A stretch of DNA of 6,819 nucleotides from a bacterium (GTDB lineage: Bacteria; ARS69): the NCBI GenBank assembly GCA_025774865.1, contig JALGZO010000504.1, positions 1-6,819 on the forward strand, written 5' to 3'. Positions 1-5,706 of this stretch are shown in pieces. The position numbers and the translations under genes were made by a program. Numbering within the stretch: the stretch's first letter is position 1; every line of letters starts with the position of its first letter. Under the pieces are notes generated by a model, which saw nothing but the letters and a program-made list of their open reading frames with translations, made no database searches and was not told where the DNA came from.

Positions 1-552
1 CATCACGAACCCGAGTCGACCGCCGTCGGTGCGCCGGAAGCGGCTCGGGTATACCCGGGCCAGCGGATGGCCACGTTCCGAGTACGCTCGGAGCACGCGC
101 TCGACATCGGAGCGAAACACGGCCTCCGAGAACGTACGCCCAGGTCCGAGATCCATCTCGGCGAAGATCTCTTCCTGGCTCAGCCGCAGATTGCCGCGGA
201 CACCGATCTCGCCGACGACCACGGGCTCGCCCGCGTCGATCGTGAGAGTCACGACGCCTTCTGCCGCGTCGCCGGACACGGCCGCCTGCCACCACCCGGC
301 GGCGACGAGGTGCTCACGAACCTTCGTGGCCGCCCTCACCGGGGCGTCGGCGGGAACGGAGTCCCCGGGCGCCCACGGCAAGAAGGCCGCCATGTCTTCG
401 ACGTCGAGGAGCCGGTCGCCCGCGAGCTCCCATCGCGTGAGCAGAAAGTCGAGCGGGGGCGCCGGCGGTGTCTGAGCGGTCCCCGCGGCCGCGCCCACCG
501 TCAGAGCGAGGAGGAAGCCGGTGGGCCCGCTGATTCGCAATCGACGTCTCAT
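1..552 (-). CDS. Partial Omp85-family (BamA/TamA-like) protein, N-terminal POTRA domains
   Basis: First 184 residues; the frame stays open to the window edge, so the barrel is not visible. The start ATG (552-550) has an AGGAGGG Shine-Dalgarno 7 bp upstream. The N-terminus MRRRLRISGP then a hydrophobic core ending GTAQ (24-27) is a signal peptide. Residues about 38-112 form a first POTRA-like unit (WELAGDRLL, a VREHLVAAGWWQA helix, VTLTIDAGEPV). Residues 113-184 form a second, clearer POTRA: VGEIGVRGNLRLSQEEIFAE, then FSEAVFRSDVERVLRAYSER and GHPLARVYPS, the classic strand-helix-helix-strand order with GN after strand one and the GYxxA-type turn (here GHPLA). POTRA domains bind periplasmic clients in outer-membrane protein insertion (BamA) or translocation (TamA, TpsB-like). 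Having two POTRAs before the edge fits several Omp85 subfamilies, so the exact one cannot be set. Placed 12 bp after the barrel-like protein, it may be a dedicated or paralogous assembly factor for it. Confidence 0.85.
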   Translation of the reverse strand, partial: MRRRLRISGPTGFLLALTVGAAAGTAQTPPAPPLDFLLTRWELAGDRLLDVEDMAAFLPWAPGDSVPADAPVRAATKVREHLVAAGWWQAAVSGDAAEGVVTLTIDAGEPVVVGEIGVRGNLRLSQEEIFAEMDLGPGRTFSEAVFRSDVERVLRAYSERGHPLARVYPSRFRRTDGGRLGFVM

Positions 553-559
553 CCGCCGG

Positions 560-566
560 CCCTCCT
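560..566 (-). promoter_or_regulatory. Shine-Dalgarno of the Omp85-family gene, overlapping the upstream stop codon
   Basis: Reading the minus strand, TAGGAGGG contains the TAG stop of the 1101-residue protein and a full AGGAGGG ribosome binding site, 7 bp before the ATG at 552. A ribosome terminating on the upstream gene sits directly on the next start region, so coupling or reinitiation is likely. Confidence 0.75.
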
Positions 567-3500
567 AGAACAGCGCTCGGACTTCCGCCCGCGCGAGATG
601 CGTGGTCGGGAGTCCTTCGAGGGTGCGACCCGAGTAGGAGATCGCAGCATTGATGTGATCGGACAACGAGAGATCGAGACCACTCCGCCAATCGAGTTGG
701 TTCACCTCTCTCGTTCGGAATCGATTCGCGACGTCGATCCCCTGGATCGAGAGCGGGTGGACCCACGTGAGCTCCGCCCGGACCCGACCGCGACGGAACA
801 CCGTGCCACTCGCCGAGGCGCCGAGCGACAGCCCGTCGATCGACGCGTCGTTCTCCCGGTCTCGCTCCCTCACCCAGCCGCCGCGCCCGGAGAGACGCCT
901 CGTCGGTAGGGGCTGCCACACGAGCTCTTCGCGAATTTCGACGAGGCGGACGTCGAACTCGGAGCGGTTGAGCGCGGAATCGGACCTCGAGTCGTCCTGT
1001 AGCGTGCCCTGGCTTTCGAGGGTCCACCGGGGGCCGAGCCGGTTGCGCGCCCGCAACACGGTCCGCTCGGAGAGAATCTCGATGCGCTGAGGATCCGCTC
1101 GATTGTCCTCGGTGTCGATCCGCTCCCAGCGCCCTGTCAGAGAGAAGGGTCCACCCGAAGGAAAGAGCGTCACCTCCTGGCGGAGGAGGATCTTTCCGAA
1201 GATCGTGTCGTCGTCGGACTGGAAGCGCCTCAGGTCGAGAAGATAGATCGGGAGTCGATCCGGCCGCGTCGTCTCCTCTTCGACGCGGACGAACGTCTCG
1301 GAGCGGAAGAGCGAGAGCCGGCGCCGCCAGGTGGTTTCCTCGTCCTTCGCTCGCGAACGCCGGCCGCCGAGTCGCAACCGGGCGCTGGCGTTGATCGCGA
1401 GCGTGGGCTGTTCCTCGGCTCCCGGTGAGGCGAGAATGTCCGAGAAGAAGCGCGACGTGGTCTGATACACGTACTCACCGCTCAGAAGCCCACCGAGATT
1501 CTCGTGGACCAGGTCTCCGCGCGTGAGCTGGGTGTCGCGATCCGTCCCGCGATCCTCTTCGAAATCGAGCTCTCGTCGAATCCAGGAGAAGCGCGCGCGA
1601 ACGGCGCGCGACGGCGTCGCTTCGGTCACCACCTCGTAGGTCCGACCGACCGAGCGGCGCATCCAGCGCCCATCCTCTACGTCGTCCGTGGTCATGAGCG
1701 CCGCCCGCAGGCTCGTGCGCCACGAGCTCCACGGCTCCAGTCCGAGACGCGCCGTGGTCTCCAGCTGGTTCTGACCGGCAAGCGTCGAGTCGGCGCGTGA
1801 CTCGTCGCGATCCTCCTTCCACACGGACAGGCCGGGGCGGATCCAGCCGACGCGGCCGGTGACCGCGGCTCGTTGCCGCAGCAGATCTCCCACGACGAGG
1901 CCCAGGGAGTCCGCCGCGTCCTCGCGGCGCACCTTCTCGATCCGGTAGCTCGCTTCCGGGAGGCGATACCCACTCCACGAGACGTTCCCGGCTCGTCTGT
2001 CGCTTCGAAAGAGCCCCGTGCGCTCGAGCACACCGTACGTTCCGTTCACCGCCCATCGGTCCCCCGAATCCAGATGCGCCGAGATCCCGCCCTCTGCCTC
2101 GTCAGCCCTCGTGGAGTCGGCGAAATTCCAGACTTCCCCCAGATAGGGGGTGCGGGTCCGCCCGAGCGAAACGAACGAGGCCTCCTCCCCCCGGAACGAC
2201 GCTTGGGTCCGGAACCGGAGAGGGCTCTCGCGGATCTTCCCCGTTCGTTCCCAGGACAGTTTGGCGAGTCCGGCGGCGGCCTCATTGTCGTCGTCCGACC
2301 TCGTCGAGAGCAGATTGCGATCCTCGCGGCTCACCGCCCCGTCCACCTCGAGGACGAGCCCCCCGGTGCGCGCGCGCAGCGCCATGTCGCTCAGCGTCAG
2401 CCGCCGGGGTGCCGTGAGGAGAAGACCGGGCTCGTAGTCCCCCGCCCCTGCCCCCACGAATCGAAAGAACCTGAGACCGGTGTCGAGGTCGCGATCCCGC
2501 ACGTACGAGCCCGAATCCTGTCCCACGAACGAGAACGAAACCTGGCAACGACCCGAGTCCTGGCCCACGTATTCGAAGTACTCCACGCTGTCGGGGCCCG
2601 CCGTCGTCATCTTCTCGTAGTCACCGGTGCCGACGGTGTCGGTGCAGACGTCGCCCGGCACCAGGATCGGCTCGTCGCCCGCCTGCGCGAGAAGCTCACG
2701 GTTCTCTTCCGAGAGCTCTAGGTTGAGCGGATCCTGGTCGTCGACTTCCGAGGCCACCCCCACGCGCCACTCGAGCCCGCGCCCCTCGGAGGCGAAGGCG
2801 CCTTCGCCCAGGTAGAAGTTGCGACGATACGCCTGTTCCGCGACTTCGAAGTCGACGGCGATCTCCGAGTCCTCCGTGACGAGACGGCGATTCGTGAACT
2901 CGAGCTCGCCGCGCGAGTAATCGATGACGTAGTCGTGGTTTTCGCCGCGCGTCAGGCGCGCCCCGTTTATCCAGACGCGCTCCGAGCCGGCGACGATCAC
3001 TCCCCCCGCTCCCGATTCGAATCCGCCGAGCACGTACGGGCCCTGCTTTCCCTCGACACCGAAGAACTCGGCGGTGCGAAACGTCCCACGAGCGGACGCC
3101 CCGATCCCCCACGCCTGTCCGGGACCCGCGCGAGCTTTCGCTTCCGCGCCGGACAGGCGTCGCTCGAAGTTCGCGAACGCGGTCCCGTCGCGCATGGCGA
3201 CGAAATCTCCCAGAGTCGCCGATCCCCGACGAGCGTCGACGCGAATGAGAACCTCGTCGAGCTCCTCGAGTCTTTGGGTGTTGCCTTCCGGCTGCAGCGG
3301 GACGTTCTGATCGGAGAGGAGCGCCGTGATCTTCACGTCCTCCCCGACCCGCCCGGTGACGCTCACCCGCAGCGACTGCTCGACGGCGGCGTCCTTGTTA
3401 CTGCCGACTTCGATGGCGACCGTCTTGGCGCCGCCGATCACGAGCTCCTCGTCCACCGTGCGTGCAATCCGGTCCACCGTGGAGGGCTCCGCCGCCATTC

Positions 3501-3870
3501 GGACGGAGTCCACGGGGGTGGGCTCGCCTCGCACGAGAGACGTGAACTCACGCGGCAGGTCGAGCGGAACCCAGGCGTACGAGATGACCAGCTTCTCGCC
3601 CGCGTGGAGCGGCTCCGCGAGCTGCAGCGTGCCAGCGTCCGGATCGAGGCGGTAGCCGACCTCGGGATCCAGATTGCGCCCGCCCCGTGAGATCGATTCG
3701 GAACCGACCAGGACGAAGCGATGCGCGAGCGCGTGAACGACTTCGGATCGCCCATCCTCGGTGCCGGTAAAGACCTCGGTGGTTTCCGGGGCCGCGATCT
3801 GCGCGTGCCCGATGCCCGTCAGGCCGAGCCAGACGCCGAGCGCGGAGGCCGCCCACGCGACGCGAGTCAT
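565..3870 (-). CDS. Large outer-membrane beta-barrel-like surface protein with SprA-resembling beta modules
   Basis: 1101 residues. ATG start overlapping the previous stop; signal peptide MTRVAWAASALGVWLGL..GHAQ with cleavage near residue 23-24. Visible regions in order: a beta module (about 52-100, GSExxxxxGxxL...Y.LDPDAGTL); a linker; a conserved-looking block (about 166-221) with SLRVSVTGRV, LSDQNVPLQPEGNTQRLEEL and ATLGDF; a second copy of the beta module (about 291-343, VAGSERVWINGARLTRGE then DYVIDYSRGELEF) preceded by GKQGPYVLGG; a cluster of VG(x)GDYE/VGQDSG repeats (413-480); then from about 535 to the end many alternating amphipathic strands separated by acidic or charged loops, ending RALF. 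A C-terminal aromatic after an amphipathic strand is typical of outer-membrane barrels recognised by BamA. The module wording resembles SprA-family and related large surface proteins of the FCB group, but this protein is much shorter than SprA (about 2400 residues), so the kinship is a family resemblance, not an assignment. Only two cysteines, C409 and C442. A transport, adhesion or surface-display role is inference. Confidence 0.85.
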   Translation of the reverse strand: MTRVAWAASALGVWLGLTGIGHAQIAAPETTEVFTGTEDGRSEVVHALAHRFVLVGSESISRGGRNLDPEVGYRLDPDAGTLQLAEPLHAGEKLVISYAWVPLDLPREFTSLVRGEPTPVDSVRMAAEPSTVDRIARTVDEELVIGGAKTVAIEVGSNKDAAVEQSLRVSVTGRVGEDVKITALLSDQNVPLQPEGNTQRLEELDEVLIRVDARRGSATLGDFVAMRDGTAFANFERRLSGAEAKARAGPGQAWGIGASARGTFRTAEFFGVEGKQGPYVLGGFESGAGGVIVAGSERVWINGARLTRGENHDYVIDYSRGELEFTNRRLVTEDSEIAVDFEVAEQAYRRNFYLGEGAFASEGRGLEWRVGVASEVDDQDPLNLELSEENRELLAQAGDEPILVPGDVCTDTVGTGDYEKMTTAGPDSVEYFEYVGQDSGRCQVSFSFVGQDSGSYVRDRDLDTGLRFFRFVGAGAGDYEPGLLLTAPRRLTLSDMALRARTGGLVLEVDGAVSREDRNLLSTRSDDDNEAAAGLAKLSWERTGKIRESPLRFRTQASFRGEEASFVSLGRTRTPYLGEVWNFADSTRADEAEGGISAHLDSGDRWAVNGTYGVLERTGLFRSDRRAGNVSWSGYRLPEASYRIEKVRREDAADSLGLVVGDLLRQRAAVTGRVGWIRPGLSVWKEDRDESRADSTLAGQNQLETTARLGLEPWSSWRTSLRAALMTTDDVEDGRWMRRSVGRTYEVVTEATPSRAVRARFSWIRRELDFEEDRGTDRDTQLTRGDLVHENLGGLLSGEYVYQTTSRFFSDILASPGAEEQPTLAINASARLRLGGRRSRAKDEETTWRRRLSLFRSETFVRVEEETTRPDRLPIYLLDLRRFQSDDDTIFGKILLRQEVTLFPSGGPFSLTGRWERIDTEDNRADPQRIEILSERTVLRARNRLGPRWTLESQGTLQDDSRSDSALNRSEFDVRLVEIREELVWQPLPTRRLSGRGGWVRERDRENDASIDGLSLGASASGTVFRRGRVRAELTWVHPLSIQGIDVANRFRTREVNQLDWRSGLDLSLSDHINAAISYSGRTLEGLPTTHLARAEVRALF
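2431..2634 (-). repeat. Protein-level VGxxxGxY repeat cluster in the large surface protein
   Basis: Four related short motifs occur within residues 413-480 of the 1101-residue protein: VGTGDYE (413), YVGQDSGRCQ (434), FVGQDSGSYV (448) and FVGAGAGDYE (471). Aromatic strands (YFEY, FSF, FFRF) precede the last three. The two central copies are nearly identical as protein and are spaced 14 residues apart. This looks like a small tandem beta-hairpin duplication inside the gene. Confidence 0.7.
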
Positions 3871-4847
3871 TTCGCCCCGTCGGTCTCGCGAACGATCCAG
3901 AAGCGCTCGACGACCTCGCGCTCCTCGTCGACTACATACACGCGCCCGTCCGGCGCCACTGCGACGTCCACGGGAGTACGAAACCGGCCGGGGCCGTCAC
4001 CGGGGCCGCCGAATTCGAAGAGCAGGGCCCCGGTCGGAGTGAGGACGCGGATGAATGCGCTGCCCGCGTCGGCTACCCAGACGTTGCCGTGCGGATCGAC
4101 GTCGATCCCGATCGGGGTATCGAGGAAATCCTCGTCCGGCCCGCCCCACGCCGCGATCCAGTTTCCGATCGCGTCGAACACCTGGATCCGGCGGTTCCCG
4201 GAGTCGGCGATGTAGACCCTCCCCTTGGGACCGACCGCGACCCCCGACGGATCCCGGAAACGGGAGGGCTCCTGCCCGAGTCCACCGAGTCGGCTGATCA
4301 GCGCGCCGGTCGGCGTGAAGATCCAGACGCAGTGGCACAGAGAGTCGGAGACGTACACCCGACCCTCCGGGTCGACGCAGACGCGCGAGGGGAGCACGAG
4401 CTCCTCCCCGGCGAGCCCCGCCCCCTCCCGGAACGGAAAGACGGCGCCCTCCGGCGATGAATCTCCGATGTCGAACCACTGGATGCGTTCGTTCCCCGCG
4501 TCCACGACGAACAAGGCAAAGCCCTCGCGGGCCGACGCGTCCGTGGGGCTGGACAGCTCGCCTTCGTTCCAGCCGTAGCCGCCGAACTCGAACACGAACC
4601 GGCCGTTCGGGTCGAAGTGGACGACCCGGTGGTTGCCGGTGTCGACGACGAAGACGCTTCCGAAGAGATCGGTCGTGACGCCGCCAGGGCGGCGGAATCC
4701 CGGATCATCGGTCGTCGAGAGGAGAGAGGCCTCGAACCGGGCGACCATCCGGACGGTCTCATCGCCTTCCGGCGGGGCGGCGAAACCCGGTCCCGCCACC
4801 ACAAGAGCCAACGCGGTCGACGTGTGAACGAAAGAGGCGCGGTTCAC
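3867..4847 (-). CDS. Exported NHL-repeat six-bladed beta-propeller protein
   Basis: 326 residues from a GTG start. I chose 4847 because a GGAGGT Shine-Dalgarno lies 9 bp upstream and the product then begins with a signal peptide (VNRASF, hydrophobic core, cleavage near GFAA at 21-24). An in-frame ATG at 4979 would overlap the preceding gene by 92 bp and add an Arg/Ser-rich shadow-like extension. The mature protein has six NHL-type strands, typified by VFVVDTGNHRVVHFDPNGRF (from residue 65) and VYIADSGNRRIQVFDAIGN (from 211), with others near 112, 164, 256 and 303. This gives a complete six-bladed propeller. Such propellers usually act as periplasmic or surface protein- or ligand-binding scaffolds, and no catalytic residues are evident. 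Blade three is odd: SDSLCHCVWIF replaces the usual G-N-H/R-x, and with C157 the blade has three cysteines. It overlaps the next gene by 4 bp (ATGA). Confidence 0.88.
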   Translation of the reverse strand: MNRASFVHTSTALALVVAGPGFAAPPEGDETVRMVARFEASLLSTTDDPGFRRPGGVTTDLFGSVFVVDTGNHRVVHFDPNGRFVFEFGGYGWNEGELSSPTDASAREGFALFVVDAGNERIQWFDIGDSSPEGAVFPFREGAGLAGEELVLPSRVCVDPEGRVYVSDSLCHCVWIFTPTGALISRLGGLGQEPSRFRDPSGVAVGPKGRVYIADSGNRRIQVFDAIGNWIAAWGGPDEDFLDTPIGIDVDPHGNVWVADAGSAFIRVLTPTGALLFEFGGPGDGPGRFRTPVDVAVAPDGRVYVVDEEREVVERFWIVRETDGAK

Positions 4848-4856
4848 GGCAGGGCG

Positions 4857-4862
4857 ACCTCC
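4857..4862 (-). promoter_or_regulatory. Shine-Dalgarno deciding the GTG start of the NHL-repeat gene
   Basis: GGAGGT on the minus strand lies 9 bp before the GTG at 4847-4845, within the 40-bp gap after the DUF5683-like gene. It supports the GTG start and signal peptide over the in-frame ATG at 4979. Confidence 0.7.
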
Positions 4863-4887
4863 GCCGGGGGAAGCTGGGCCGCGGGCG

Positions 4888-5706
4888 TCAGTATCGCTTC
4901 GTGAGGACCGGTCCGATCGCGAGACCGTCGATCGTCTCCCGCGCGCCGATGCGAAAATCGAGTCGGGCCCTCTGTTCATCCAACGCGCGGTTTTGCCGGC
5001 GTGTCAAGGTCATGACGTGCACGACGGAAACGAGCCGGTTGACGAGAGCGGCACCCGCCACCAACCGCGAGTTGCGGTAGGACTTCTCGAATCGAGATCG
5101 AAGTACCCGGTAGTCGGTGCGGACCTCGTCGTCGGCCCACTCCCAGAACCGGCTCTCGTCGTATTTCTTGTTCTCTTCGAAGAAGCGGGCCTGGGCGTCC
5201 GGATCGTCCGGAAAGCGGAGCCGGGCGTCCCGGCGAACGATCTCGTGCCACTCGTCGAGTGAGAGCCATTGGCCGATGTGCTCGTAGTAGTCCGCGTCTC
5301 CTTGCGTGCTCGCTTGACCGTGAGTCCGCGCGAACTCGATCGCGCGATCCTGCCTCAGGTTTCCCTCGATTCGGTAGTACGCGAACGCCGTCCAGATCAC
5401 CGCCTCGGCCACGAAGAAGATCTTCGCTCGATCCCCGCGACCGATGTACTGCTCGCCGAGGCCCGGCAGGATCGCGGACGCGGTCATGGCGAGCGCGACC
5501 GACTTCTTGTCGTCGGACTCCGCCGTCGGCCACCGATCGACCCAGTCCCAGTCGTCCGTCGCCCAGTCCGGATCGACGTCGGAGAAGGAAGTGAACGCGA
5601 ACGCGTCTCGGGCCGCGAGCGTCAGTGGCGTCGGCGCCGCGCCGGGGCTCGCCGCTGCGGTTCCGGCTCCCAGGAGCCAGATCGTCGTGGCGAGCCATCG
5701 CTTCAT
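4888..5706 (-). CDS. DUF5683-like membrane protein
   Basis: 272 residues. The ATG overlaps the preceding stop (ATGA). An N-terminal signal or anchor (KRW, then a hydrophobic run ending near AAAS at 17-20) is followed by an Asp/Trp-rich acidic stretch (about 42-68). Next comes a hydrophobic segment containing LPGLGEQYIGRGDRAK (80-95), closely resembling the LPGxGQxYxGxxxK signature of DUF5683 and related small membrane proteins. A second hydrophobic segment is at about 96-111 (KIFFVAEAVIWTAFAYY) and a third at about 214-233. About 100 charged residues lie between the second and third, rich in Trp, Tyr, Asp and Arg. The C-terminus is hydrophilic, possibly beta-forming, ending TKRY. The family has no firmly known biochemical role; it often occurs beside envelope or surface protein genes in FCB-group bacteria. 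Its place in this operon suggests envelope assembly. I am fairly sure it is a real gene and moderately sure of the family. Confidence 0.8.
   Translation of the reverse strand: MKRWLATTIWLLGAGTAAASPGAAPTPLTLAARDAFAFTSFSDVDPDWATDDWDWVDRWPTAESDDKKSVALAMTASAILPGLGEQYIGRGDRAKIFFVAEAVIWTAFAYYRIEGNLRQDRAIEFARTHGQASTQGDADYYEHIGQWLSLDEWHEIVRRDARLRFPDDPDAQARFFEENKKYDESRFWEWADDEVRTDYRVLRSRFEKSYRNSRLVAGAALVNRLVSVVHVMTLTRRQNRALDEQRARLDFRIGARETIDGLAIGPVLTKRY

Follow-up and report, generated by a model that had tools for sequence, protein, structure and literature searches.

A proposed compact sister family of SprA with a predicted giant outer-membrane barrel in bacteria that carry type IX secretion

Introduction

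Does a gene that resembles SprA at half its length encode a true relative of this protein, or an unrelated product that shares one module with it? The question is raised by a 1101 amino acid protein encoded on contig JALGZO010000504.1 of assembly GCA_025774865.1 (lineage Bacteria; ARS69). The window analyzed here is this entire contig (C508; 6,819 bases), part of a 4.7-Mb draft genome. SprA/Sov is the outer-membrane translocon of the type IX secretion system (T9SS; model TIGR04189; PDB 6h3i, 8gl6, 8gl8). It lets CTD cargo through, powered by the GldLM/PorLM motor, and docks PorV or the Plug. Its 36-strand barrel is capped on the outside and opens laterally at the docking site of PorV (PMC10994853), and more than 150 kDa of the protein lies outside the membrane (PMC12611786). 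An earlier note, made from the sequence alone, had described the gene product as a large surface protein resembling SprA, with a barrel-like C-terminal half, and left two choices: a divergent export or display channel, or an unrelated outer-membrane protein that has a beta module in common with SprA. The limits it gave are exact, and the open reading frame (ORF) is on the minus strand (Table 1). Here we show that the protein represents a separate, widespread family whose kinship with SprA reaches beyond a single module.

Results

Kinship with SprA

The phrases GKQGPYVLGG, VAGSERVWINGARLTRGE and DYVIDYSRGELEF, which the earlier note likened to SprA, are located in residues 274-324. In this part of the protein, the NCBIfam model of SprA (TIGR04189) matches residues 287-343 with 27.9 bits (E-value 3.3e-7). 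We aligned 71 full-length proteins of the family (A3) and, separately, 44 SprA proteins drawn from whole genomes, and compared the two alignments using hhalign; the profiles match with a probability of 97.4% and an E-value of 1.3e-11. Three pieces of the family match SprA, and they are colinear: (i) residues 140-289, which match the first conserved SprA block (approximately residues 176-287 of the SprA of L143; E-value 4.3e-6, probability 87); (ii) residues 291-345 (piece 285-350), which match the SERV/DYxIDY module of SprA (E-value 5e-13); (iii) more weakly, residues 985-1040 (piece 985-1101), which match the SprA C-terminus (E-value 1e-4). Additionally, residues 41-105 (piece 25-110) are a duplicate of the module in (ii) and match the SprA module with an E-value of 4e-12. 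Reversed-profile controls gave no significant SprA match (E-values 0.3-0.6), and the same family pieces gave no match to an Omp85 alignment (E-value 0.26 for residues 140-289). Sequence searches with the protein or the 71-member profile found no solved structure (E-value limits of 1 and 10, respectively). Because the first barrel strands match SprA independently and in order, a shared beta module alone is disfavored, and by this comparison the family and SprA have more than a borrowed module in common.

The module at residues 291-345 (window positions 2836-3000) also weakly resembles the phage tail-tube and distal-tail models NF052337, TIGR02217 and DUF2460. These matches fall on the same beta module, and we take them as chance or generic beta similarity. 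One Bacteroidota member (L198) apparently lacks the N-terminal module, so the barrel may be able to do without it.

A family separate from SprA

The protein is not SprA itself. Its 27.9 bits do not reach the curated cut-off of TIGR04189 (200 bits), the SprA_N domain (PF14349) is absent, and no Pfam family matches at an E-value of 1 or less. The estimate of half the usual size holds: members of the family are approximately 1050-1250 amino acids long, in contrast to 1681-2741 for the 44 SprA ORFs and approximately 2000-2700 for a typical SprA. The same genome encodes a true SprA on contig C42 (530.7 bits), where the end of the contig truncates it, together with at least 150 T9SS sorting tails. 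A truncated or broken SprA is ruled out, since members of the family are conserved at full length and the genome has a real SprA as well. The notion of a short SprA relative therefore stands as far as kinship is concerned; what falls is the idea of a shortened or odd SprA.

In the same genome, partial SprA-like fragments are found on another contig (L060, G000:C606, positions 4165-5645); one stretch covers TIGR04189 positions 372-544 and another, on the opposite strand, 890-950. They may stem from a second copy of SprA, from a break in the assembly or from contamination.

Predicted structure

We built an AlphaFold2 model from the 71-row alignment (mean pLDDT 86.1, pTM 0.76); the strand count and closure given here rest on this single model. 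Secondary structure assignment by DSSP gives approximately 38 long strands from residue 143 to the C-terminus (39 with the short strand at 207-213). A barrel is thus predicted, as had been suggested, and it extends well beyond the C-terminal half. The hydrophobic alternation between inside and outside, averaged over the family, is 3.72 in the strands versus 2.26 when shuffled (standard deviation of the mean 0.14), and 36 of the 38 strands exceed their own shuffled median. A C-terminal phenylalanine, a feature of proteins inserted by the beta-barrel assembly machinery (BAM), is found in 55 of the 71 members. In a Foldseek search of the PDB, SprA chains take ranks 1, 2, 3 and 5 (E-values 1.5e-10 to 2.5e-8); TonB-dependent receptors, the Mtr complex barrel and SlpA appear among and after them. 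The model thus predicts a large, presumably closed single-chain barrel with a strand number close to the 36 of SprA and with SprA-like domains inserted.

Counting back from a periplasmic C-terminus by the parity of the DSSP strands, rather than from coordinates, we place the second module (residues 291-345), an insert with GxGxY repeats (residues 382-489) and the one barrel loop that holds the conserved motif D-x-N-x-x-S-x-x-D-D probably on the outside.

Distribution and operon partners

We found at least 568 relatives in many phyla, including KSB1, Zixibacteria, Gemmatimonadota, Calditrichota, Latescibacterota, Eisenbacteria, Neomarinimicrobiota, Ignavibacteria, Balneola and Chitinophagaceae, among others. 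The family is conserved across bacteria of the Fibrobacterota-Chlorobiota-Bacteroidota (FCB) group.

Across many of these phyla the gene is part of a common operon, in which an NHL propeller gene is followed by the barrel gene and then by an Omp85 gene with three POTRA domains. Among 80 loci examined, the NHL gene lies within three genes in at least 47, nearly always directly upstream, and the Omp85 gene within three genes in at least 33, nearly always directly downstream; these counts are lower bounds, as some of the contigs break off nearby. The Omp85 relatives have three POTRA domains and a 16-strand Omp85 barrel by profile matches and an AlphaFold2 model (Omp85 domain in all 30 relatives, POTRA in 28), and the downstream neighbor has PDB profile matches to BamA and TamA. 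A T9SS-sorted, M6-like FG-GAP protein (NF052323) recurs a few genes upstream in several phyla (L083, L100, L109, L110, L133, L134), as do DUF5683-like proteins.

In Bacteroidota the barrel gene is mostly single copy, and its neighbors (aspartokinase, ribosomal genes, ExbBD) vary by lineage and give no single functional clue. In Balneola and relatives (L122, from the cultivable Balneola sp. EhC07, L130 and L131), the gene has a DsbD-like gene on one side and ExbB/ExbD-type motor genes on the other; this arrangement suggests that an energized link is possible in this lineage. In four other loci from Ignavibacteria and Bacteroidetes (L078, L097, L112, L140), a gene of approximately 740 amino acids follows within two genes of the barrel; in L112 it is a UvrD-like helicase by eye.

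Co-occurrence with SprA

Is the family tied to type IX secretion? We scored 198 Bacteroidota genomes of at least 95% completeness, counting the tables by hand and treating 10 weak matches to the SprA module alone as absence. SprA and the barrel family (c0) are both present in 120 genomes, SprA alone in 34, and neither in 44; the barrel family is found in none of the 44 genomes without SprA and in 120 of the 154 with it (Fisher p-value 6e-23, uncorrected for phylogeny). In one further phylum the family occurs in 62 of 63 genomes. In a mixed sample, all 15 carriers have SprA matches and PorV, and 17 of 18 further carrier genomes have SprA above the cut-off.

The window and its neighboring genes

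In Table 1 we list the features of the window. Its five sensible long genes are all on the minus strand and form a tight row, separated by short gaps or joined by start/stop overlaps. Read on that strand, they encode the T9SS-sorted FG-GAP protein, the DUF5683-like protein, the NHL propeller, the barrel and the Omp85-family protein, in this order. The true start of the NHL gene is probably a GTG near position 4847. The neighbor that the earlier note credited with a T9SS-type sorting domain does carry one, of type A (TIGR04183, 29.7 bits; cut-off 23), and its relatives are T9SS-dependent, M6-like inactivated metalloproteases.

Table 1. Features of the 6,819-base window and the evidence for each
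Feature	Positions	Strand	Evidence
Compact giant outer-membrane barrel protein of the SprA superfamily (c0), 1101 amino acids, ATG start	565..3870	-	ORF, family, SprA profile match, AlphaFold2 model
Signal peptide, residues 1-24 (...GIGHA/Q)	3799..3870	-	Read by eye; low pLDDT at N-terminus of model
First SERV/DY.iDy-type beta module, residues 41-105, N-terminal to barrel	3556..3750	-	hhalign to SprA module, E-value 4e-12
First barrel strands, residues 140-289	3004..3453	-	hhalign to SprA, E-value 4.3e-6, probability 87
Second SprA module VAGSERVWINGARLTRGENHDYVIDYSRGELEF..., residues 291-345, between barrel strands	2836..3000	-	TIGR04189; hhalign E-value 5e-13; DSSP
Inserted small beta domain with GxGxY repeats, residues 382-489	2404..2727	-	Alignment; DSSP
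Remaining barrel, residues 490-1101, 29 of approximately 38 long strands, F at end	568..2403	-	AlphaFold2/DSSP, strand hydrophobicity
NHL beta-propeller protein with signal peptide; conserved upstream partner	3867..4979	-	Pfam NHL, E-value 3e-32
Omp85-family protein, POTRA part only, cut by contig end; conserved downstream partner	1..552	-	Pfam POTRA, E-value 1.5e-8
DUF5683-like small protein; recurrent upstream neighbor	4888..5706	-	Pfam and loci of relatives
FG-GAP-repeat protein, C-terminal part with T9SS type A sorting domain, cut by contig end	5703..6818	-	NF052323, TIGR04183

Discussion

We favor, with a probability of roughly 60%, the reading that the protein belongs to a compact sister family of SprA that forms a giant channel or scaffold in cells equipped with the T9SS and has its own assembly factor. 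The sequence kinship, the predicted barrel, the operon and the co-occurrence with SprA are all results of computation. The family shares with SprA/Sov colinear profile similarity of the first barrel strands, of the SERV/DYxIDY module and, weakly, of the last strands; like SprA/Sov, it is predicted to form a giant barrel from a single chain, with nearly the strand number of SprA, and is restricted to FCB bacteria as far as sampled. Unlike SprA/Sov, it has half the length, stays below the TIGR04189 cut-off, lacks SprA_N, coexists with a true SprA and has genes for an NHL propeller and an Omp85 protein beside its own. The barrel is kept, with a small extracellular part and little of SprA's outside mass. 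The strand number alone is not new, because 38-stranded barrels have already been predicted in Deinococcus radiodurans (PMC9388160), a different phylum, and we liken the two by strand number alone.

The operon partners also resemble known proteins. The Omp85 neighbor shares POTRA repeats and a 16-strand Omp85 barrel with BamA and TamA; it differs from them in having three POTRA domains at approximately 580 amino acids (a TamA-like size) and in being tied to the gene of a giant barrel. The NHL neighbor is secreted and has the NHL repeats of other beta-propeller proteins (ScyF-like by NCBIfam), although it falls below the ScyF cut-off and is a conserved operon partner of the barrel. The propeller might have a BamB-like or a plug role.

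How might these parts work together? From this point we infer sidedness, the plug and assembly roles, and protein transport. The secreted protein would fold into one giant outer-membrane beta-barrel of approximately 38 strands. A SprA-type module and a further small domain would be inserted in it, probably on its outer face, and the duplicate module would lie at a periplasmic N-terminus. The three-POTRA Omp85 neighbor would insert this barrel. The periplasmic NHL propeller may be a plug, gate or adaptor, and together with the N-terminal module it might close or gate the barrel from the periplasm. In T9SS cells the product would serve as a very wide channel, or as the scaffold of one, that lets protein cargo through or holds it, next to SprA; of the choices raised at the outset, an export or display channel is plausible. 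More tentatively, and with less than even confidence, we consider that bacteria with a T9SS could have a second, so far undescribed giant channel that conducts proteins. In this view the barrel is a compact and possibly ancestral version of that of SprA, has an Omp85 protein of its own as insertase and a propeller as gate, is conserved throughout the FCB group, and was overlooked because family models do not cover it.

Several observations weigh against the preferred reading. Between the matched blocks similarity to SprA fades (residues 377-700: E-value 0.008, not significant). The whole-structure TM-score to SprA is low (0.25 by Foldseek), and the superposition of the barrels is no proof; low scores may be expected between differently shaped giant barrels. 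The 50 rows listed by VIA-align are ordinary porins, AlgE and ushers, with SprA not among them. These rows, in which the porins are much smaller, cover residues 140 to 1101, which fits adjacent first and last strands; closure is not proven thereby. Many Bacteroidota members stand without NHL or Omp85 neighbors, the NHL gene still adjoining the barrel gene in 3 of the 40 Bacteroidota loci read. One carrier among the 18 further genomes, a metagenome-assembled genome of Ignavibacteriales, has no detectable SprA. Finally, the 34 Bacteroidota genomes with SprA alone indicate that the core T9SS does not need the barrel everywhere.

What else could the protein be? It would be a giant barrel descended from SprA under the view that it serves a role other than protein transport (export of polysaccharide, lipid or lipoprotein, or an envelope scaffold) and tracks SprA through common lineages. 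Kinship of barrels does not fix the substrate, the Bacteroidota neighbors are unrelated genes, with ExbB/ExbD-like motor genes in Balneola, and SprA's large extracellular mass is missing; but the absence of the family from every SprA-less Bacteroidota genome and the recurrence of the T9SS-sorted M6-like protein nearby in several phyla make this role unlikely, if still worth serious attention. We consider it rather improbable that the protein is an accessory component for T9SS assembly or anchoring, on which sorted proteins or SprA would dock, instead of a channel. For a mere platform, a closed 38-strand barrel would be a strange solution, and the genomes that have SprA without the barrel manage without one, even though the tight linkage to SprA-bearing genomes and the T9SS-sorted neighbor gene would suit such a component. 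An unrelated outer-membrane barrel that has only borrowed the SprA beta module is very improbable. The best match is indeed the module of approximately 55 residues, which weakly matches phage tail models too, and hhalign of A3 with only 7 SprA sequences aligned this region alone; yet the stretch 140-289 by itself matches SprA, in colinear order and with controls that are negative, the C-terminal block shows a weak match, SprA comes first in Foldseek and the strand numbers are similar.

No Pfam or NCBIfam model covers the family. The literature searched reports no relative of SprA and describes SprA as specific to FCB bacteria. The family may be an overlooked partner of the T9SS, and as a single-copy, widely conserved sister with a similar barrel at half the length it would be a new candidate component for T9SS research. 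With a dedicated Omp85 protein in the same operon, it would offer a simpler model for the building and insertion of giant barrels. It would also open a route to the evolution of the T9SS translocon, and it is testable, as its many Bacteroidota carriers include cultivated ones.
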